Assembly (NCBI GenBank): GCA_028819565.1
Contig: JAPPLD010000002.1
Location: forward strand, 1-36,710
DNA: 36,710 bases
Source of the DNA: Gammaproteobacteria bacterium
Lineage (GTDB): Bacteria > Pseudomonadota > Gammaproteobacteria > Poriferisulfidales > Poriferisulfidaceae
Direction: 5' to 3'
This document shows, in pieces, positions 30-10,743 of the stretch. Within the stretch, counting starts at the first letter, position 1. Every line of letters starts with the position of its first letter. The notes under the pieces were generated by a model. It made no database searches. It was not told the DNA's origin and saw only the letters and a program-made list of their open reading frames with translations. The translations under genes and the position numbers were made by a program.

Positions 30-88
30 ATTCCACACAAAATCTCGAAGCGCCAACTACTAAGGCGCTTCGCGATTAAGTGTGGAAT
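30..88 (-). repeat. Right-end palindrome of the TnpB element (probable omega-RNA 3' hairpin)
   Basis: Arms 30-54 and 64-88 are 25 bases each, pair with only three mismatches, and enclose a 9-base loop (AACTACTAA). The inner 8 pairs (GAAGCGCC/GGCGCTTC) are perfect. The palindrome overlaps the tnpB stop codon at 76-78. In studied TnpB systems the guide RNA comes from the end of tnpB and the adjoining right end, so this is the likely scaffold hairpin; that role is inferred. Confidence 0.7.
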
Positions 89-1482
89 TCGGGCCTGTCC
101 CGATAATTCCACTGCATCGTTGACGGATCATTGACGGTGTCCACTAGGCACTCCATGAAGAATGCCCCCGCTTCGTTGTCCTCTCCCCGTCCCGTCACCG
201 GAGCGCCTCCGGCCAGGAGCCTGTTCAATCCCAGGTCCAGGATGTTTCTCGCGGCATTGAGGTCCGCGTTGTCCGTGTGCCCGCAGGCCAGGCACTTGAA
301 GCGCACCTGTTCCTTTCGGTTGTCCTCGTCCACGTGCCCGCACTCCGCGCAAGTGCGACTGGTGTTCCGCGCCGGCACTCGGATCAGATCCCAAGCCTTG
401 TACTGAAGAAAGCGGTCCACCATCCCCATGCAGGAGACCTGCGCCATCTTCCGGTTCAGCGCCGACTTCGCCTTTACACGCTTTCCGGGTTTCTCCTTCG
501 TCCCCTGCGCCGAGCGACGCATCGACTGCACGTCCAGCTCTTCCAGTACGATGTGACCGAACAGCCGCGCCAGGTCCGCCGAGGACTGATGGCTGAAGTC
601 CTTCCGGATCTCCGCCGCCCTGCGCTTCGCCTTCGCCGCGCGCTGCTGCAGCCGCTGCCGGCGGTTCGAGGCCATCTTCACCGCCTTGCCCGACTTCGTG
701 CGCACTGGCTCCCCGTCAGTGTCCTTCAGTTCGATCCACTCCCGGCGGCTCGCCCGCCACTGATAGTGCCGGACCCGGGCCTCGTATTTCTTGATCCGCT
801 CATACGGGATTTTGATAAGCCTCTGCCCCCCGATCCAGTCCGCCGCGATGTTCTCCGAGTTGCGGTCGATCCCGCAGACCCCGCCGTGCCAGCGCCGGTC
901 CGGGTCCGGCACCTCCCACAGCACCGACACGTACCACTTGTCCAGTTCCCGGTACACCACCGCAACCTTGGCTTCGCCGCCATCCCAGGGGTCGGTCCCC
1001 CGCGTGCGTGAGGCCGCCTTGCGGTTCATGCGGATCCAGCCCACCTTCGGCACCCACAGTCGCTTGTTCTGCACTTTCACATCGTGCGGGATCGTGAACG
1101 ACTCCCGGCTGACGCCCTTGACCTTGAAGCGGGGGAACCCGGCCTGTCTTCCGCGCTTGCCTTCCCGAATCCGCCGGGAGAAATGCGCGAACGCCGCTCC
1201 CAGAGGAAACGCGCCCGTGCCGCGGACGACGACGGACGACAGCTCTCGCAGCCACTCGTGGCCTTCCTTTGCCTTCAGGCGTGCATACCGCTTCGCGAAA
1301 TCGAACTCGGAACACCCCGGCTTCTCCACCTCGCCGGCCTCGAAACGCTCATATTCCCGGATCTGATCGGCCAGCAGTTCGTTGTAGACGAACCGCCCGG
1401 CTCCGCACAGCCGGATGAACTGTTGTTCCTGTTTTTTGTTCGGGTGCAGGCGGTAGCGGGAGGCCCGATGCATGATGGGCAT
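76..1482 (-). CDS. tnpB: TnpB, RNA-guided nuclease of an IS200/IS605 element
   Basis: A 468-residue TnpB. Proteins of this family are RNA-guided DNA endonucleases, ancestors of Cas12, that use an omega RNA made from the element's right end. The order is an N-terminal OrfB-type region, a RuvC-like nuclease and a C-terminal zinc ribbon (CAECGH...CLACGH, about residues 375-398). All three RuvC acidic residues are visible: Asp in GIDRN (about 206), Glu in VLEEL (about 312) and Asp in NADLNAA (about 406), so the nuclease looks intact. Base composition is GC-rich like the host chromosome and unlike the AT-rich genes beside it, suggesting separate arrival. ATG at 1480-1482 was chosen; a second ATG three codons later is possible. 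The stop codon lies inside the right-end palindrome. Confidence 0.93.
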   Translation of the reverse strand: MPIMHRASRYRLHPNKKQEQQFIRLCGAGRFVYNELLADQIREYERFEAGEVEKPGCSEFDFAKRYARLKAKEGHEWLRELSSVVVRGTGAFPLGAAFAHFSRRIREGKRGRQAGFPRFKVKGVSRESFTIPHDVKVQNKRLWVPKVGWIRMNRKAASRTRGTDPWDGGEAKVAVVYRELDKWYVSVLWEVPDPDRRWHGGVCGIDRNSENIAADWIGGQRLIKIPYERIKKYEARVRHYQWRASRREWIELKDTDGEPVRTKSGKAVKMASNRRQRLQQRAAKAKRRAAEIRKDFSHQSSADLARLFGHIVLEELDVQSMRRSAQGTKEKPGKRVKAKSALNRKMAQVSCMGMVDRFLQYKAWDLIRVPARNTSRTCAECGHVDEDNRKEQVRFKCLACGHTDNADLNAARNILDLGLNRLLAGGAPVTGRGEDNEAGAFFMECLVDTVNDPSTMQWNYRDRPEFHT

Positions 1483-1557: not shown

Positions 1558-2511
1558 TTACGATTCGCTATAGGGTCCAAGAAAACGAGTGCCATTGAAA
1601 TGAATCAGGTGAGATGGAGAATCAGCGACCCAGACCTCCGTCTCCCAGGCAATTTCAGCAAGAAACTGTCGCATAGAGGCGCGATCAGGAAAGGCAGTGA
1701 CGTATAGGAGATCAGCCTTAGCTTCCACACATAGTTCGGCTAATTCTTCGTGCCGTTTACCATCAACCGGTCCGTGGCTGGTTACGGATTCGACCAGGAT
1801 CAACCAATTTTTATCCGCATAATGCAACATCACATCAGGCATCTTGCCGTGTAAGTCGGGATTGATACCGAGTTTGCCCATAAGATCAGTGTCAAAGTAA
1901 CCCCATTTGTCACCAGTGTCTCCAGCGTAGACTAAAGTACTTCCTGGAGCAAAACGTGGGGCGAACTCCTCAATAACATCCCGAATAAGCTCACTATGAT
2001 TACCCGGGCTAAGGGTTATTTCTTGGCTTGGTGAGATCTTGACAGGGACAAGAGTTTGTTCGCGCGGTTTTGCGTAGCGGGAGATAAGAGTCTGGCGTTC
2101 ATTTAGATAGGATATAAGTGCTTTATCCCATGCAGGGGTTTTGTACAAACGCAGTAAATCCAAAGCTTCAGGGGCAATTTGATAGACAGCTTTAGGGCTG
2201 TTTACAGGGCGGTCTGGCTGATCTGGGTTGTATAAGGCAAGGCCCGCATCACAAAACTGGTGCATCGTTTGGCGACGAATTGTTTCCCGAGTATTAGGTG
2301 CGTAGTCTTTACCGTAATGTTCTCTAACCCAGTCCATGATTGGAGTGATGCCGATGTATGGGTCTTCCGCTTCTGCCCATACTTTGTTTGAAGTGAGGTT
2401 TAGCAGTGCCAGTAAGCATAGGGCTGAACGCTCATTTTGTTGAGCCCTTGGCAGGCCCAGAAAAACAATAATTTCATGGGCCTCCTGAATACGGTCGTTT
2501 TTGTCCCTCAT
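1558..2511 (-). CDS. BsuBI/PstI-type restriction endonuclease
   Basis: A 317-residue type II restriction enzyme, close to the known length of BsuBI and PstI (about 316-326). The C-terminal catalytic part contains PDVMLHY, then WLILVESVTSHGPVDGKR at about residues 225-255, the family's conserved core with acidic and lysine residues of a metal-dependent nuclease. By family, the target would be CTGCAG, but specificity cannot be read from sequence. The start codon overlaps the stop of the upstream methyltransferase (ATGA at 2508-2511), so the nuclease is translated after its protective partner. The gene is AT-rich compared with the chromosome and was probably acquired together with its neighbours. 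Confidence 0.92.
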   Translation of the reverse strand: MRDKNDRIQEAHEIIVFLGLPRAQQNERSALCLLALLNLTSNKVWAEAEDPYIGITPIMDWVREHYGKDYAPNTRETIRRQTMHQFCDAGLALYNPDQPDRPVNSPKAVYQIAPEALDLLRLYKTPAWDKALISYLNERQTLISRYAKPREQTLVPVKISPSQEITLSPGNHSELIRDVIEEFAPRFAPGSTLVYAGDTGDKWGYFDTDLMGKLGINPDLHGKMPDVMLHYADKNWLILVESVTSHGPVDGKRHEELAELCVEAKADLLYVTAFPDRASMRQFLAEIAWETEVWVADSPSHLIHFNGTRFLGPYSES

Positions 2512-4013
2512 GTGGAAAGTATTTGGATCCGGTCATCAATCATGGTTTGAGTGATCTTTTTATGCTTCATGGCCCACTTGCCTAACTTAAGCAAAGTAGT
2601 GCGGCTCGGGTATTTCATTAATTTTAAGTCAGTCGCATTGACTTGGGTGTGTCCGCTAAAGCATCGAAAATAATTATCAACGAGAGTCGAGTTGAGAAAC
2701 ACTGTCAAGCCATGTGCTAGTGCTTGTGGCAAGCTGCGTTTATTTTCGTGGAACAGATTCAAGTGATTTTCAAAACCGAGTGCTTTGGGTTCACCGAATA
2801 CACTAGGGTCTACCACGTTTGCTACGACCCGACGTTTTTCTTCCTTGGACGAAAAACGTCTAACTACACAGTAATAACCGCTGGGATACAGCCACTTTTG
2901 GGTGTCAGAACTGTAGCGAATAGCATTTCGTTTTTTCTCCCCAGAAACTGGCCAATTGGCACCATCATTGTTGAAATGCCCAGGATAAAGTAGGGGGACA
3001 CAATCGGGGTCAGGAGTTTCGCGCAAATATTTTCTGAGCCGGAAGTCGACAACGGGGCCCGTGGAAACACCGATACCCAATTCATCAAGCGTGTGGTGGA
3101 TAGCAGGGGGGAGTTTTGCTGTAACGGCAGAAGAGGTTGGAACATGAATAAACTGTTCAGGGTTATCTGGTAGTACGATTTGCTTAAACGGCCAAGAAAT
3201 CTCGGTCAGATCAGTGAATGTATTGTCAGTCGAGGTGGAAACGGTTACGGGTCCTTGCTGCCCATCTCGTTCGAGTTGGATGATGATAGTTTCTTGCAAC
3301 ACGTTATCATCCTTGAACGCTCTGGTGCGGGATTCGAACAAGTGTAGGTGCCGGATGGCAGTGTGAGCGAAGATGAATCTGCGGAAAGGTCGATAGTAAG
3401 GCCCATTGCAAAAACTGCGTGGAATAATTGCGACAATCTGCCCACCTGGTTCGGTTAGTGCGATGGTCAGCGCTAGGAAAGCGGAATAAAGGTTGATTGT
3501 CTCAATTCCAACCTTTCGCAAAAGTCCCCGATATCTGGAATCGCTCCGTATTTTTTTATAGGGGGGATTCAAGATTGCATGTGTGAAATTGTATTGCTGG
3601 AACTGGATTGCATTGGTGGCTTCTTCGACAAAATCATCGCTGATAATTTCGTAGGATAGGGGACATTTTTTAGTGTAAAAGGACAAGGAATCCCGCAATT
3701 CTGATTGCACTGTAGGATCTATTTCAAATGCCTTTAGTAGGATGGTGTCAAAGGCCATGTCTCCATTAACACATCTTTCAAGAAATGCGCTTGTCAAAGA
3801 ACCAATTCCTGCTCCAGCGTCGAGTAGGCGGCATTCTCCATTTGATCGAGGGAAAAGCCCTGCCATGAATGCAGCTGTATTCGCAGGCGTGAGGAATTGT
3901 CCGAGATGTGATTTCTTTTCTGCGCCGGTGCGTTTTGACACTTTCAGGCGAGTTTGGTCGACGGCCGTCAAGGAAGTCGTACTTTCTATCGAAAATCCTT
4001 CTCCAGAAGTCAT
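2508..4013 (-). CDS. BsuBI/PstI-type adenine-specific DNA methyltransferase
   Basis: A 501-residue N6-adenine methyltransferase, the protective half of the restriction-modification pair. The SAM-binding motif LLDAGAGIGSLTSAF lies at about residues 63-77 and the catalytic NPPY motif at about 149-152 (LNPPYKK). The following region matches the Eco57I/PstI type with a C-terminal target-recognition part. Length agrees with M.BsuBI/M.PstI (about 500). Expected methylation is the adenine of CTGCAG, inferred from family only. Many CTGCAG sites occur in this window (for example at 7072-7077 and 8193-8198), so an active nuclease would need this enzyme. It overlaps the nuclease gene by 4 bases. No separate controller (C) gene is seen upstream. 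Confidence 0.92.
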   Translation of the reverse strand: MTSGEGFSIESTTSLTAVDQTRLKVSKRTGAEKKSHLGQFLTPANTAAFMAGLFPRSNGECRLLDAGAGIGSLTSAFLERCVNGDMAFDTILLKAFEIDPTVQSELRDSLSFYTKKCPLSYEIISDDFVEEATNAIQFQQYNFTHAILNPPYKKIRSDSRYRGLLRKVGIETINLYSAFLALTIALTEPGGQIVAIIPRSFCNGPYYRPFRRFIFAHTAIRHLHLFESRTRAFKDDNVLQETIIIQLERDGQQGPVTVSTSTDNTFTDLTEISWPFKQIVLPDNPEQFIHVPTSSAVTAKLPPAIHHTLDELGIGVSTGPVVDFRLRKYLRETPDPDCVPLLYPGHFNNDGANWPVSGEKKRNAIRYSSDTQKWLYPSGYYCVVRRFSSKEEKRRVVANVVDPSVFGEPKALGFENHLNLFHENKRSLPQALAHGLTVFLNSTLVDNYFRCFSGHTQVNATDLKLMKYPSRTTLLKLGKWAMKHKKITQTMIDDRIQILST

Positions 4014-4524
4014 TGATCTTTTTCTAATTGGGGTGCCAGAATGTTCACAGTGATAGTAAGCGCATTGTAGAACATGACTATTAACTTAAATTTATATCAT
4101 AATATCAAAGACTTAGATGTAATATTTCTATGGACAAAAGATTCTACTGCATTTGGTTAGATTAGAACACTATGTGGCCAACTCCATCTGCTCAAAGTAT
4201 AGCAATGTGACTATTCCGGATATAAACGACAAAACTAAGCGTACTTGAAGAAATTTTTTTCTATCCGTCACATATTGGACAAACTGCAACTTGCCGTCAG
4301 AAATCTGTCCTTTTTTCCAAATTACGTAGCGTTCATATCATGAGGAATACTTCAATACAGCAGACAATGATATATCCCTAAAAGAGCGACCTAATCAAGG
4401 GAGAATATGAACTACTCCTACCTTGGGCTACGACTATAGCCGAGAAAGTTGTCGATATGGTGGGCGGGAGAAGTTTTGGCGATAAAGTGGAGCCATTATT
4501 CGAACCACAATCTTTCTCTGAAAT
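4014..4524. other. AT-rich intergenic region between the methyltransferase and the giant gene
   Basis: About 510 bases with no gene I can support. It should hold the minus-strand promoter of the restriction-modification pair near 4080-4110 (a TTGATA-like box at 4103-4108), but the -10 match is poor. A plus-strand stretch at about 4387-4604 reads open for some 70 codons (containing EKVVDMVGGRSFGDKVEP) without a good start, and could be a decayed gene end. Confidence 0.5.
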
Positions 4525-7500
4525 CTATCCAGATTTCTTTTTGAGGTCCGCGATAGATTTTGTAGGTTTTTCTACATCAAGCCCTGCCAACGTAATTGAC
4601 TTTGCGCGAAGATGAAACCAAGACCTTAACGGTAAAGTTATTTCCATCGCGCTAAGATGGAAGAGAAATAGTTGCAAAAAATCTTTTGGGTCGCTTGGCA
4701 AACGCTCGGCAAAATCGACCAGTTTTTTTTCGAGCCATTCAAGCCATAGTTCTCTTTCGCTGTAGGTGGCGGCGGCATGCAGCAAGATTACAAGCATCTG
4801 CGAAATTTTATCTATTTCTGGAATATCTTCTGCTAAGCGAATGATTCCGTTTCCGACGGAATCTGCGAGTATTCTGTCACCACTTGTAAGCGCGACAATG
4901 CTTGCCAAATTCAAACATTCCAATTTTTTAGAAAAATTCGAGGGAGCGACATCTTTAATTGTTAGGTTGACGGCTTGCCGAGCATATTCTAGCTCCGCTT
5001 CTCCTAGAGAAAATGATTGAGAAACTGTTACCATTCCCGACCACGGAAATGATTCCAAGTTTTGTGTTCCGCGAAGCCCCAATTCCTCTAATAAAGTGTT
5101 CGGAACAGGTGGGCTGGGACGCCTGTGTCCCTCGAGAAGCCCGGGGAGGTTAGGTGTGAACGATTGTCCACCGCTCTTACATTGATCAAGTGCCTTGTCA
5201 ATGTCGTGCAATCCCGGAATTTTTCTACCTTCTGTTTTATGGCGACTTACAAGTTTTAGCAAATGGTTAAGCACTTCATTTCGTAAGGTTTGTTGCACCG
5301 AGAGCATTGGTTCTTCTCGAGCATCAAAAAAAGCCATATACAGGCCGCCTGGCGTCATACCCTTGTTTGCCCATTCTTGAAGAGAATTAATATCGTATTC
5401 AGAGGAGTGTTCGATCAGAATTCGAACAATTAATCCAGCCTGCATCCATGCACACATACGTTTCCAGTAACTAGGGTAATTTGGACCATTTTCCAACACA
5501 TTGATTCGATTATGTATTAAATTTGCGAAGACTGTTAGAACCTCCCATATATTGCTATTTTCATCTTGCCCGAATTTGTCATCGGTGAGTTGACTGATTG
5601 CATTTGTAGAAAATTCCTGAAATCGAACATCATCTTGCCGATATAGCGCAACATCTAAAGCTCCAAGTAAAGAAAACGGGTTGTTTTGAACGTCACATGA
5701 CGAGAGCGCATCCCATAGGGTATCGTTATCAATGGATTGAAGCCATTGCCCAGGCATTAAATCATCACGGAGGGCTCCCAAGCAGCATATATCAAGCCCA
5801 GCCTTTAGATCTTTAACCAGAAGCGCCTTTCGATACTTCGCCAATGATCCAGAAATATAAGAATCAGGCGCTTCTTCATCAGGTGTGGGGCCAACGAATC
5901 GCTCAAAATAGGAGAGAGAATCTGGAATAAGATCCTTGACACTGAAATTGTTTAAAATTTTGTTATTCAATTCGCGCTGGGCGGCTGCAACTCCGTTGTG
6001 TGTCTCCTCAAATATGCTAGAAAGTTCATCGTAGTCCAGTTCGTGTGTTTGAGCCTTCTGTACCAAGTGATGAAAATCTGGTGCTGTCGGACCTAATCTC
6101 TTTATGAGGTTACGAAGCGTAGTAGTTCGGGCTTCTGGATCAGCAGAAAGAAGAAAAAAATCAGGTATCTTTGCACGATGATTTTCTGAATTTGTACTTT
6201 GCCACTCCAAGACAATAGAGCCATCCTCGTTATCAAGGCTGACTGATACCTTTATTCCATTGGGCTCTAGGGTAACTCTACTTTGGTCTTTCGAAAGAAC
6301 TTTCTTGGCTGCAACAAACAGGTCGATATCTGTAAGGCTAATATCTGCTCCAAGGTTAAATGTCTTTCGTGCTAGTAGGCCAAAAGGTTTTGAAAGGTCT
6401 GGTTTTTCGAAAACAATTCTGCGAAGAGTTTCTGGGAGGCATTTTAAAAACCAATATCCATACTGATTTGCTTGGTCACCAGCGAGCGACAAAACCGCGT
6501 TGCACGCAGTCTCGACTGTTTCCTCTATCAGGTCTTCATTGGCGAGCCAGAATGACGTAAGAACAGATTTATTTATCCAATTTGCGTAAGAGGTCTGCCG
6601 TTCTTCTGAGGACGAATGTGTCGGAGTATATAGGGTGGCTATGCGATTAACCACTGTAGCCCGAAGCCTATTCCAATAAACATCTTGTTCGGCATGTTGG
6701 CGAGCTAGCGCGGCCACTATCATTAAATAGTGCCAGATCCAGTCAGAGAGAGCTATTGCTTGCTCTATAGGTACCGATTCTTCTGACCACAAAGACCGAA
6801 TGGTTGTTGTGCAAGCGCTGGTAATATCGGAGGATAAAGCAAGAGTTTCTTGTAAGTTAGCTAGGCCCAAGTAATTGGTTTGAGCGGTTGTCTGTCGAAT
6901 AATTCGCAATTCAGCAGTTTCTTTCAGCCCCATTTCGTCGTACGTGGCGGCCTTAATCCAATGCATTAATTCTGCCGCTTCAAAAGGAACAAATACAAAA
7001 CCGCCTTGCCGCAGTTTATGTCGCATATTCCAATGATCAGTTTCGCTAAGACACTTACAAGAAACTAGATGCTGCAGTATGTCTAGTGTGCAAACGATGG
7101 GTATTGCTTCAGTATCATCAGTTTTTATAGTTAATCTGTCGTTGATGTAACGGTCATCACTACACAGTACATCGTAAGTGTCACAGGCTGCTAGTAGAGA
7201 TGCTGTGGCATGGGATTGTATGTCGAAATCTTCTAGGTTTTCTTCCTGATTTAAATTATGAGGAAGAAATGCTACTGTGCCAGAATCAATAGTATCCCGC
7301 AGAATGCCCCGGATATTTTCAACTTTCTCCATAAGAAGATCGCTCGCATCCTCCGCTTGTATTAGTATCTCCATATCGGCTAGAACGTTTGCATGGATTT
7401 GAATGTCTAGCCCGCTGGTAGAAGCGGATTGCAATACACTAGAACTTTGTAGGTAGGATAAAGCAAGGCGATCAATGAAAATAGTTTCATTGAGAATTGA

Positions 7501-10500
7501 TAATGGATCATCTGTATGCTCAATTTGGCCTTGACTGCGCAGAAAAGACATTATTCGACTGTAATCATCTTCTCCCACTCTTCCTGCATTCTGTAGGGCT
7601 ATGCAAAAATCGATAGTAGAAACGATTTGATCTTCATATTCATTAACATCTGCTTCTTTGTTCATAAGTGAACCAGCCTTGTAAATGGGTAGCGTGCATA
7701 CAACTTTCCCGTTTACACTTTTTGCTTGTTGCAATAAGGACGCCAACTCAAATCCCATTTCGCTAGTGACGTTGGTCGGGGGCGTCTTTGAATCAGAAAC
7801 TACTTGTATATGATTCAATCTTGCCAATTTTTGTAATTCTTTGGCTGCTTTAATTTGAGAAGGTTGATGAAAACGAATCCTATTCTTTTCTGATGCTAGA
7901 AATCTCAGAGTTTCTGGGGCAATCTTCACGTGTTCAAAAGTTTCAATAGCCTGTTCAAGTAGTCCAAGATAGAAAAGAATTACGATCGAAGTGATATCCA
8001 ATCCAACTACCCAGCCTTTCTGAAATTCAACAGAATTTCGTCTTCCCGCAAAAGCAGGAAGCACCGTACGACGGCGACCGTCTAATTCGACACGATTTTG
8101 ATTAGGGATTGCGATCAATAGACGTAGCAATGGTTCATTAAATAAATTAGTAGCAAAACTTGTCGGAATTTCACCTTCCAGCCACTGCCGCTCTGCAGCC
8201 CGAATGTGTTCCCTATGCTGCGGGATACTCTCAATTAAATCTGGCAAATTAATTTGCCACAATGGCCCTTTGCCAGGAGAAGAAAATTCAAGCGCATGTG
8301 CAAGCCAATCAGGGTCTATTTCATCATCGCGCCCCAGTTGCATGTGCAGCGCATAAGTGGCCATCAAAATGTGAGGATTGTCTGGAGCTTTTTGTGCGGC
8401 TAGTCGAGAAAGTTGTAATGCGCGCTCAGTATTTTGATTAAATTGACCAGCAAGTTGAGCTAGGGACATTAGCGTTTCTGGAGTGTGTGAACCTCGCCGA
8501 GACCATTCACGATTGACTATCTCTGGTATTCGTTCCCATTCTCCAGTTGCTATTGCTAAATCAACGTCGAGCAGTAAATCGTTTGGCTGCGTCCTCTGGT
8601 GTAAAAGAGAATCATTGGCGACTCTAGAATCTGCAAACCGCCCAACATGAAATAGCGCCTGCGCTTTGACCGCTTTCAAATCATCGGTCTGTGAAAGAAC
8701 ATTTGGATTTGCACCCAAAAATTTGATGATTTCTTTGTAATCAGCAAAAGGGTGTTTGGTAAGACATACCACATAATTGTGAGCATTTTCTGGAGTTGAG
8801 TGACGCTGGAACAGTTCATGGAGTAAAGGCCGTAGTGCCTTATGGTCGTTTACTCGCCTCAAATGTTCAATGAGATTTTGTAAATCAACAAGAGAATTTG
8901 TTTTGTGATAATTATTTTCGAGTTGAGGCCGAATGTCTTTTCCTTCACCAGCTTCTATTATCGCAGTCAAGCGATGTACACTTTCTTCATCAAGATTATC
9001 CTGATTTCCTTCTAAGACTTTACGCGCTTTTTTGATCTGGCTATCCTCAACAAGGGTTTCGATATTAATGCCTGTTACAACAACCGGAGGAATTATTTGC
9101 TTCAATCGCGCTTCATTTTGTTCTATATAAATCAGTAGATCATGAGGGGTCTTGGATGTTTCGGCTAGAAGGAATTCTGCTAAAAAATCACGATCATCTA
9201 AGCCACCAAATTGTTTTCTACGTTCTAGATAACGTCTCAAGGGTTCTTCACTAATTGTGATGTTAAAAGCCCATGCAAACATCATTAAATTCGCTGCTTG
9301 TTTGCCATCCTCCATTTTTTTGCTAATTTCTTGGCGAACACTTTTTGATGCTTCAGTATCCGGATTCATCAAACGAAGCCAAAGACGCCAGTCAGTGATG
9401 AATTGATCCAATTCATGGTCAACGACATTTGTTAAATTTTCATGAGCAAACTCGAAACAAGTTGTCGCGCGAGCATGGTGAATTGCAATTTCAGCCCCTA
9501 GATTTAAAGTCACATCTTTGTACACTGGAACTTTTTCCAGTGTCATACTACGCATCTCTTCGGGTAAGAGCATTGCAGCATTTACTATTCCCTCGATGAA
9601 CCTAAGTGCAGGCATCTCAAGTTCTGGTGATTCAACCTTGACAAGTTGTTGAATGGCTTCTTTCCACTTATTAGCTTTAGCCATATTAATGGCCCAATTA
9701 ATCCAACCGATGGCTGTAAAGAACAGAGGATCATTGCATGCATTTTCTTCACCATACCAAGTTAAAACATCTTGCAACTCTTTTGATTGAGTCAAGATTA
9801 TTAAGAAAACTGATCTAGATTCTGCGTCGTTTTGGTCGCGAAGAATGTGTAGAGCGTTATCCGTATCACCACTAGTATCAGCAAGCAGTGCATCTACGAT
9901 AGAGAGATTCCAATTCACGTCAGCCTGCTTAAGTTCAACTAATATTTGTTGCGAGATAGGAAGTGTTTCAGGGTCGCTGGCACATAATCTGGCGGTCCAA
10001 TAGGAAATGTTTAATTTAGTGTGATGGTCAATGAGTGAAAGATTCCCTTCATTTATCTGTTGCCACAGCTTTTGGATGTCTTGTCGCGCTTTAGGTGGAT
10101 TGAAAGGTCGAGAGACGAGGATTTTTGATAACGCCTGACATGCCTGTTCTGTCTGGTTTTTTTGAGTAATAGGGTTCTCGGTGTGTCGCAATCCTTCTTC
10201 CAAACGATCAAAGCGAGCACTTAGATTTTGAAAAATTGATTGGCTTATACCGACGTTTGCTAGTTGATTGTCAGGAATTTCCGACATATACCCTTGCTCA
10301 AGGATAAATACTATGGCTCTGATAGGTAGGTAGGCATTTTGGTCAATTTCGCCTGTAAATTTTGAATAACTTGTGACTAAACGTGCATAGGCTTCTGGGT
10401 CTTCATCAATATTGCTTATTCGATTTTGTGCGAGTAAGAATAGATCACGCACTACTTGATCTTCAGTGAGCCAATCCTGCACTGCTGGCTTTTTCAGAAA

Positions 10501-10743
10501 GCCCGGATCAATATATTGTTGACTGGCGGTGCTAAATGCGTTTTCCCACCATGAAGCTTCGACTCTTCCTCCTCGCAATCTACATAGGGTTTGGTCAAAG
10601 ATCAACTCCATTTGACTTCGAGAATGTTGAAAGGGTGCTTGCCCGGCTTGTCGTTCTGTGTGCAAGCGATTCAGAAACCCGAAGACACGTCCGAATGATT
10701 TAACTAGCCACGTCACTAGCACCGAGGTAGAGAAGTCAGACAT
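4525..10743 (-). CDS. Giant helical-repeat protein with two central PIN-nuclease-like segments
   Basis: A 2072-residue protein I do not recognise by name. Residues ~1-900 and ~1300-2072 are almost entirely helical with TPR-like spacing (for example PENAHNYVVCL, QALFHVGRFADSR). In the middle, two stretches resemble PIN RNase domains. The first (about 910-1060) opens with a strand-Asp motif VVGLDITSIVILF followed by IAPETLRFL. The second (about 1085-1255) has IFIDRLALSYL, IQIHANVLADME and ACDTYDVLCSDDRYIND, the last resembling the PIN C-terminal acidic motif, then IPIVCTLDIL and a FVFVPF strand. A short beta-rich segment lies near 1560-1610. No membrane segment or signal peptide is seen. It is AT-rich and sits beside a restriction-modification pair downstream of ihfB, a typical defence-island setting. 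RNase activity and anti-phage function are inferences. The ATG at 10741-10743 has no strong Shine-Dalgarno sequence. Confidence 0.8.
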   Translation of the reverse strand: MSDFSTSVLVTWLVKSFGRVFGFLNRLHTERQAGQAPFQHSRSQMELIFDQTLCRLRGGRVEASWWENAFSTASQQYIDPGFLKKPAVQDWLTEDQVVRDLFLLAQNRISNIDEDPEAYARLVTSYSKFTGEIDQNAYLPIRAIVFILEQGYMSEIPDNQLANVGISQSIFQNLSARFDRLEEGLRHTENPITQKNQTEQACQALSKILVSRPFNPPKARQDIQKLWQQINEGNLSLIDHHTKLNISYWTARLCASDPETLPISQQILVELKQADVNWNLSIVDALLADTSGDTDNALHILRDQNDAESRSVFLIILTQSKELQDVLTWYGEENACNDPLFFTAIGWINWAINMAKANKWKEAIQQLVKVESPELEMPALRFIEGIVNAAMLLPEEMRSMTLEKVPVYKDVTLNLGAEIAIHHARATTCFEFAHENLTNVVDHELDQFITDWRLWLRLMNPDTEASKSVRQEISKKMEDGKQAANLMMFAWAFNITISEEPLRRYLERRKQFGGLDDRDFLAEFLLAETSKTPHDLLIYIEQNEARLKQIIPPVVVTGINIETLVEDSQIKKARKVLEGNQDNLDEESVHRLTAIIEAGEGKDIRPQLENNYHKTNSLVDLQNLIEHLRRVNDHKALRPLLHELFQRHSTPENAHNYVVCLTKHPFADYKEIIKFLGANPNVLSQTDDLKAVKAQALFHVGRFADSRVANDSLLHQRTQPNDLLLDVDLAIATGEWERIPEIVNREWSRRGSHTPETLMSLAQLAGQFNQNTERALQLSRLAAQKAPDNPHILMATYALHMQLGRDDEIDPDWLAHALEFSSPGKGPLWQINLPDLIESIPQHREHIRAAERQWLEGEIPTSFATNLFNEPLLRLLIAIPNQNRVELDGRRRTVLPAFAGRRNSVEFQKGWVVGLDITSIVILFYLGLLEQAIETFEHVKIAPETLRFLASEKNRIRFHQPSQIKAAKELQKLARLNHIQVVSDSKTPPTNVTSEMGFELASLLQQAKSVNGKVVCTLPIYKAGSLMNKEADVNEYEDQIVSTIDFCIALQNAGRVGEDDYSRIMSFLRSQGQIEHTDDPLSILNETIFIDRLALSYLQSSSVLQSASTSGLDIQIHANVLADMEILIQAEDASDLLMEKVENIRGILRDTIDSGTVAFLPHNLNQEENLEDFDIQSHATASLLAACDTYDVLCSDDRYINDRLTIKTDDTEAIPIVCTLDILQHLVSCKCLSETDHWNMRHKLRQGGFVFVPFEAAELMHWIKAATYDEMGLKETAELRIIRQTTAQTNYLGLANLQETLALSSDITSACTTTIRSLWSEESVPIEQAIALSDWIWHYLMIVAALARQHAEQDVYWNRLRATVVNRIATLYTPTHSSSEERQTSYANWINKSVLTSFWLANEDLIEETVETACNAVLSLAGDQANQYGYWFLKCLPETLRRIVFEKPDLSKPFGLLARKTFNLGADISLTDIDLFVAAKKVLSKDQSRVTLEPNGIKVSVSLDNEDGSIVLEWQSTNSENHRAKIPDFFLLSADPEARTTTLRNLIKRLGPTAPDFHHLVQKAQTHELDYDELSSIFEETHNGVAAAQRELNNKILNNFSVKDLIPDSLSYFERFVGPTPDEEAPDSYISGSLAKYRKALLVKDLKAGLDICCLGALRDDLMPGQWLQSIDNDTLWDALSSCDVQNNPFSLLGALDVALYRQDDVRFQEFSTNAISQLTDDKFGQDENSNIWEVLTVFANLIHNRINVLENGPNYPSYWKRMCAWMQAGLIVRILIEHSSEYDINSLQEWANKGMTPGGLYMAFFDAREEPMLSVQQTLRNEVLNHLLKLVSRHKTEGRKIPGLHDIDKALDQCKSGGQSFTPNLPGLLEGHRRPSPPVPNTLLEELGLRGTQNLESFPWSGMVTVSQSFSLGEAELEYARQAVNLTIKDVAPSNFSKKLECLNLASIVALTSGDRILADSVGNGIIRLAEDIPEIDKISQMLVILLHAAATYSERELWLEWLEKKLVDFAERLPSDPKDFLQLFLFHLSAMEITLPLRSWFHLRAKSITLAGLDVEKPTKSIADLKKKSG

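Follow-up and report, generated by a model that had tools for sequence, protein, structure and literature searches.

With a probability of roughly 0.55, the giant protein encoded in the window analysed here (the whole stretch of 36,710 nucleotides) is a single-chain, self-contained bacterial immune protein, probably of the abortive-infection kind, belonging to a double-PIN branch of the TPR-GreA/B-C-PIN conflict systems, and we infer a mechanism in which it cuts RNA while docked on the transcription machinery. The domain content, the conserved acids, the exchange of N-terminal modules and the mobility are documented by sequence comparison and predicted structures. From its N-terminus, the predicted order is an N-terminal module, helical TPR-like repeats, an HTH domain, PIN1, PIN2, a helical region, a permuted GreA/B-C-like domain and a helical arm. 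The features of the protein and its surroundings are as follows.

4525-10743, minus strand: single open reading frame of 2072 aa with an ATG start; an end-to-end relative exists in a Magnetococcales genome
10159-10743, minus strand: exchangeable N-terminal module, residues 1 to about 195, helical by appearance and with no family match, otherwise present only in the Magnetococcales relative
8248-10158, minus strand: TPR-like helical repeat region, residues about 196-832; TPR_19 is below cut-off here and clearer in relatives
8038-8247, minus strand: HTH_upst_double_PIN (PF24407), residues 833-902, above the curated cut-off (E 3.3e-14)
7609-8013, minus strand: PIN1, residues about 911-1045; D916 and E952 invariant, E999 beside a mostly acidic column, P1019 invariant, no fourth acid
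7060-7488, minus strand: PIN2, residues about 1086-1228, with D1091, D1196, D1197, R1198 and D1221; third acid missing here
6166-6363, minus strand: strand-rich region, residues about 1461-1526, aligned with the permuted GreA/B-C (PF24388) of the relatives' separate downstream gene
4528-6165, minus strand: C-terminal helical arm, residues about 1527-2072, homologous to the remainder of the relatives' separate gene of 620-640 aa
2508-4013, minus strand: neighbouring PstI/BsuBI-type adenine DNA methyltransferase
1558-2511, minus strand: neighbouring PstI/BsuBI-type restriction endonuclease
76-1482, minus strand: TnpB, an RNA-guided nuclease of the IS200/IS605/IS607 type, at the contig end
11124-11132, no strand: left edge of the insert, coinciding with the ihfB stop codon; in same-genus genomes lapA-lapB-pyrF come next

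Alignments indicate that the open reading frame is a real gene, since a Magnetococcales protein of 2051 aa aligns to residues 1-2042 (25% identity, E 3e-147) and relatives are encoded at 22 loci in a search of 84,980 species genomes. The frame of 2072 codons is intact and far beyond chance length; the coordinates given in an earlier note on this DNA are exact, on the minus strand, and relatives match along the whole chain. Plasmid and genome searches recovered relatives from Rhizobiales, Oxalobacteraceae, Vibrio, Klebsiella, Providencia, Methylophaga, cyanobacteria and others. One contig binned as Roizmanbacteria (L036) encodes a protein deep inside the proteobacterial clade and is therefore probably misbinned, and in a Rhizobiales genome (L035:7200-11788) the large gene is split into two overlapping frames of 782 and 803 aa.

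The TPR-GreA/B-C-PIN conflict systems were predicted by Kaur, Iyer, Burroughs and Aravind in eLife in 2021 (PMC8195603; Pfam PF20698), who proposed that the target is a virus-hijacked RNA polymerase, that the PIN domain cleaves the transcript and that it is backed up by an N-terminal effector, which varies (PMC8195603); the polymerase as target is a proposal rather than data (PMC8195603). The literature searched yielded neither an experimental test of any class member nor a paper describing a double-PIN arrangement in mid-chain. By its domain order the giant protein is a sub-branch of this class distinct from the archetype, because its PINs lie ahead of the GreA/B-C region whereas the archetype carries a C-terminal PIN. 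Tandem PINs in mid-chain upstream of a permuted GreA/B-C, a fused arm and swapped N-terminal modules were not found in the literature searched and may be new. The earlier note had regarded the protein as a candidate for an undescribed system, which proved incorrect, as the class was predicted in 2021 (PMC8195603) and Pfam families exist both for the double-PIN HTH and for the permuted GreA/B-C. Its suggested relation to PIN_TPR-GreABC is confirmed, with PF20698 matching 23/23 aligned relatives at E <= 1. Thus, that reading correctly recognised the PINs, the scaffold, the family link and the defence-like insert, but overlooked both the GreA/B-C region and the exchangeable module at the N-terminus.

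At residues 833-902 PF24407 scores 53.4 bits against a cut-off of 27, and two PIN units follow downstream according to both profile and model. The large helical regions assumed earlier are likewise recovered by sequence and model; TPR_19 reaches only E 0.21 in the window protein, and TPR matches are clear in the relatives. The AlphaFold2 model (mean pLDDT 83, 23 sequences) contains two consecutive five-strand units with the PIN order of elements, at about 912-1042 and 1088-1217, in line with the PIN fold proposed for both segments. Both motifs from which the segments had been recognised are also present: D916 sits in VVGLDITSIVILF and D1196/D1197 in LCSDDRYIND. When their profiles are compared with those of the family's canonical single PINs, the two segments reach P about 2e-4 and 1e-4, while ten controls with shuffled columns all give P 0.12 or more. 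On the 608-residue piece of the window protein, PF20698 (PIN-TPR-GreABC) scores 22.3 bits over two stretches, under its cut-off of 27.8. The two PINs show no BLASTP similarity to each other and are alike by profile only (P 0.007). Querying the PDB by sequence, both with the protein itself and with profiles built from its PIN and C-terminal regions, gave no credible hit; NELF-B alone appeared, with an E of about 0.5. Foldseek and VIA-align searches with both long models returned helical-repeat matches only, with no PIN or GreA chain listed; these searches were dominated by the helical repeats and are thus uninformative on either small domain.

Conservation of the acidic residues was counted over 27 sequences, as distant as cyanobacteria. 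In PIN1, D916 and E952 are invariant (27/27), the third position is acidic in 24/27 (column 998; the window carries E at 999) and the fourth in 0/27. In PIN2, D1091 is acidic in 24/27, D1196 in 26/27, and D1197 and D1221 in 27/27, with R1198 also present in 27/27; the third position is acidic in only 16/27, the window not among them. Four acidic residues within one domain are therefore found in neither PIN of the window protein, PIN1 being without the fourth and PIN2 without the third, and nuclease activity is not assured. The earlier suggestion that PIN1 may be degenerate, leaving one active centre, holds insofar as PIN1 has lost one of the four acids in 27/27 sequences; however, PIN1 keeps the most conserved D916 and E952, and PIN2 of the window also lacks one acid, which makes a division into one degenerate and one active domain too simple. 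Sequences without D1091, e.g. the Magnetococcales one, keep D916.

This acid pattern possibly reflects one shared centre, and it would also fit two weak centres or none. A more specific proposal, which we regard as doubtful, is that the two tandem PINs contribute to a single active site, built from D916, E952 and the third acid of PIN1 together with D1197 and D1221 of PIN2, an intramolecular pseudo-dimer that would have arisen by duplication and complementary loss and that the GreA/B-C arm would position on the RNA polymerase of the infected cell; if true, this would represent a new kind of nuclease centre as well as a transcription-guided immune protein. A strictly complementary loss of acids is not seen, given that PIN2 retains D1091 in 24/27. 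A single PIN split by an insertion, an idea derived from the single-PIN relatives L025 and L026, is not favoured, as the model contains two complete five-strand units. L025, L026 and L063 represent an intermediate form with a single mid-chain PIN; in L025 and L026 its first half resembles PIN1 and its second half PIN2, with phosphorylase or death-like domains nearby.

The incomplete acid sets also bear on two readings in which the PIN pair does not cut. A tentative alternative, of clearly limited probability, is that the pair serves as a nucleic-acid-binding sensor rather than a nuclease, and that the N-terminal module is the effector, set free once the sensor has bound RNA of the phage or of the transcript: each PIN is without one canonical acid, and the N-terminal module varies by clade, a common trait of effectors, whereas the PINs form part of the constant core. 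Nevertheless, D916, E952, D1197 and D1221 are acidic in 27/27, more than mere binding needs, and the N-terminal module of the window contains no recognisable enzyme. Far less probable is that the protein is a decayed passenger, an inert remnant with both PINs inactive that is carried along with the restriction-modification pair, as might be suggested by its long tree branch, at 1.84 changes per column, and by the incomplete acidic set; the invariance of the acids across the 27 sequences argues against decay of both PINs, the family-invariant acids are all retained here, the frame of 2072 codons is intact and homology spans the whole chain.

The GreA/B-C-like region is assigned by homology to the split gene of the relatives. 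Strands are modelled at about 1461-1526 in an otherwise helical arm (model mean pLDDT 74.5), at the place where relatives match PF24388; the window protein itself has no direct Pfam match to this family, which matches 17/20 members of the C-terminal alignment. In 23/27 compared sequences the large protein stops soon after the PIN region and is followed by a second gene of 618-674 aa, overlapping or nearly so, which carries Permuted_GreAB-C (PF24388) where scanned; one of the 23, L035, with its broken large gene, was omitted from the split/fused test. Window residues 1426-2037 align with these separate genes (E down to 2e-18), and residues 1426-2072 correspond to the second gene along its length, so the window protein is the fused form. 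The split form, with the GreA/B-C arm in a separate downstream gene, is the commonest among proteobacterial relatives, and a two-gene version of about 1360 + 624 aa occurs in Vibrio and others. In the tree, one branch (support 91/95) divides split from fused forms; the long branches of the window and Magnetococcales rows leave their exact place unsure.

Homology to most relatives, and with it the constant core, starts at about residue 190-200. The modules ahead of this core vary by clade and include an alpha/beta hydrolase with an HSLGG motif, a hydrophobic or membrane segment, caspase-like, phosphorylase and death-like (bDLD3) domains; a variable N-terminal module on a constant core, as in the TPR-GreA/B-C-PIN class, is therefore present. 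A search of 398 genomes and of plasmids gave no further carrier of the window's module. Residues 1-30 resemble an amphipathic or hydrophobic helix, and the module is possibly an uncharacterised helical domain of membrane or adaptor type.

The gene lies in the AT-rich insert that had been noticed after ihfB, where GC is 40-47% against 60-67% for most of the remaining window, and it adjoins, as recognised earlier, a PstI-type restriction-modification pair, a defence-like setting. The loci around ihfB-lapA were compared in same-genus genomes (L027, L028, L029, L030). Two of these have lapA-lapB-pyrF directly after ihfB, the genes being named from translations and usual gene order, and in two more the ihfB junction holds an insert, of about 0.8 kb in one case (where a HicB-like ORF was recognised by eye) and 1.2 kb in the other. 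On another contig of the window's genome (G000:C6, L074), lapB is found 419 bases from the contig start, and the first 70 bases there are not genus-like, which places the insert between ihfB and lapA with a length of at least 11 kb. By this comparison, insertions recur at the ihfB-lapA junction within the genus, a hotspot whose content differs between relatives. The TnpB gene at the contig edge recurs as a copy on contig C6 (87% identical) and as several fragments elsewhere, and is probably the reason why the contig ends there. A second PstI-type endonuclease, 81% identical to the window copy, lies elsewhere in the same genome (G000:C21:38125-39063), and two same-genus genomes also carry one (79-80% identical).

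The spread of the family is sporadic: PF24407 occurs in 4/398 genomes of the phylum, the giant gene is found in 0/5 same-genus relatives, relatives are also carried on plasmids, and the tree places close copies in different classes. Neighbouring genes in the relatives include a Wadjet-like MksE, a type I restriction-modification system and a DUF1156/DUF499 operon, and SIR2 and HsdR, a defence-rich setting. In four loci, from Klebsiella, Providencia, Advenella and an Alteromonadaceae genome, the two-gene form is the cargo of an element that lies next to ssb (L041, L043, L048 and L049, at about 1700-7700); ahead of the cargo stand three tyrosine recombinase genes and a coiled-coil-like gene of 158 aa. 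In Magnetococcales (L052:129-13654, the same region as L024), the full-length relative closes an apparent operon that also holds genes for NADAR, a DUF1156 methyltransferase and DUF499. The view of the protein as a self-contained single-gene system is upheld, as no partner gene is broadly kept in the relatives' loci besides the split-off GreA/B-C arm. No relatives were found in phage genomes or viral contigs, the Klebsiella two-gene version has no DNA match in 5,426 E. coli genomes, and PADLOC gives no match to the giant protein.

Taken together, the sporadic spread, the hotspot insert and the recombinase and restriction-modification contexts speak for mobile defence and against housekeeping. 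They bear directly on the reading of the protein as a host transcription or RNA quality-control factor, in which the GreA/B-C-like domain would target RNA polymerase and the PINs would trim transcripts under stress. GreA/B-C domains do act on RNA polymerase in known proteins (PMC8195603), which favours such a role; yet we consider it improbable, because the gene is missing in 5/5 relatives of the same genus and in about 99% of the genomes sampled from the phylum, its relatives occur on plasmids and in recombinase elements, and it sits in a low-GC insert at a hotspot whose content varies between relatives.

In the preferred reading as an immune protein, the helical arms and the GreA/B-C-like region would sense, or dock onto, a transcription complex, which may be RNA polymerase at work on phage DNA; the PIN pair would then cut RNA, either the transcript or other cellular RNA, and the N-terminal module would give a second, clade-specific output. 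If confirmed, this would link phage sensing to the transcription machinery. The interest of the giant protein is that of a testable member of a predicted class rather than of a new kind of system: the double-PIN branch offers a concrete residue set and a natural, clonable two-gene version (about 1360 + 624 aa), and it raises the question of whether two PINs share one centre, form two weak ones or have none.

Among known systems, DS-3 (DefensePredictor 2026, PMC13092281) is similar, by description only, in being a single protein that needs its PIN for phage defence and has no antitoxin, whereas its one PIN is divided between the N- and C-terminus and no GreA/B-C is mentioned (PMC13092281). VapC-type PIN toxins have the PIN fold in common with the window protein, and RNA cleavage is expected by analogy; the window protein differs in its giant scaffold and its lack of an antitoxin gene, and profile comparison with two VapC proteins gave no detectable match. 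Common to the window protein and the TPR-GreA/B-C-PIN systems are the helical repeats, the GreA/B-C-like region as assigned by homology, a PIN of the same family, a variable N-terminal module, mostly stand-alone genes and sporadic spread. The archetype has one C-terminal PIN and open frames of about 1100-1470 aa, and the nine single-PIN proteins sampled from the phylum have 157-232 aa between the end of the PIN and the stop; the window protein departs from this order, with two PINs at residues 911-1228 of 2072, and in the double-PIN branch the GreA/B-C is permuted (in relatives) and often lies on a second gene, unlike in the archetype. From the PF24407 / PF24388 proteins the window protein differs by its fusion, by an N-terminal module present in one other genome only and by a GreA/B-C-like sequence too diverged for the Pfam model, and it resembles them in its above-cut-off PF24407, its HTH-PIN-PIN order and a C-terminal region homologous to PF24388 proteins.
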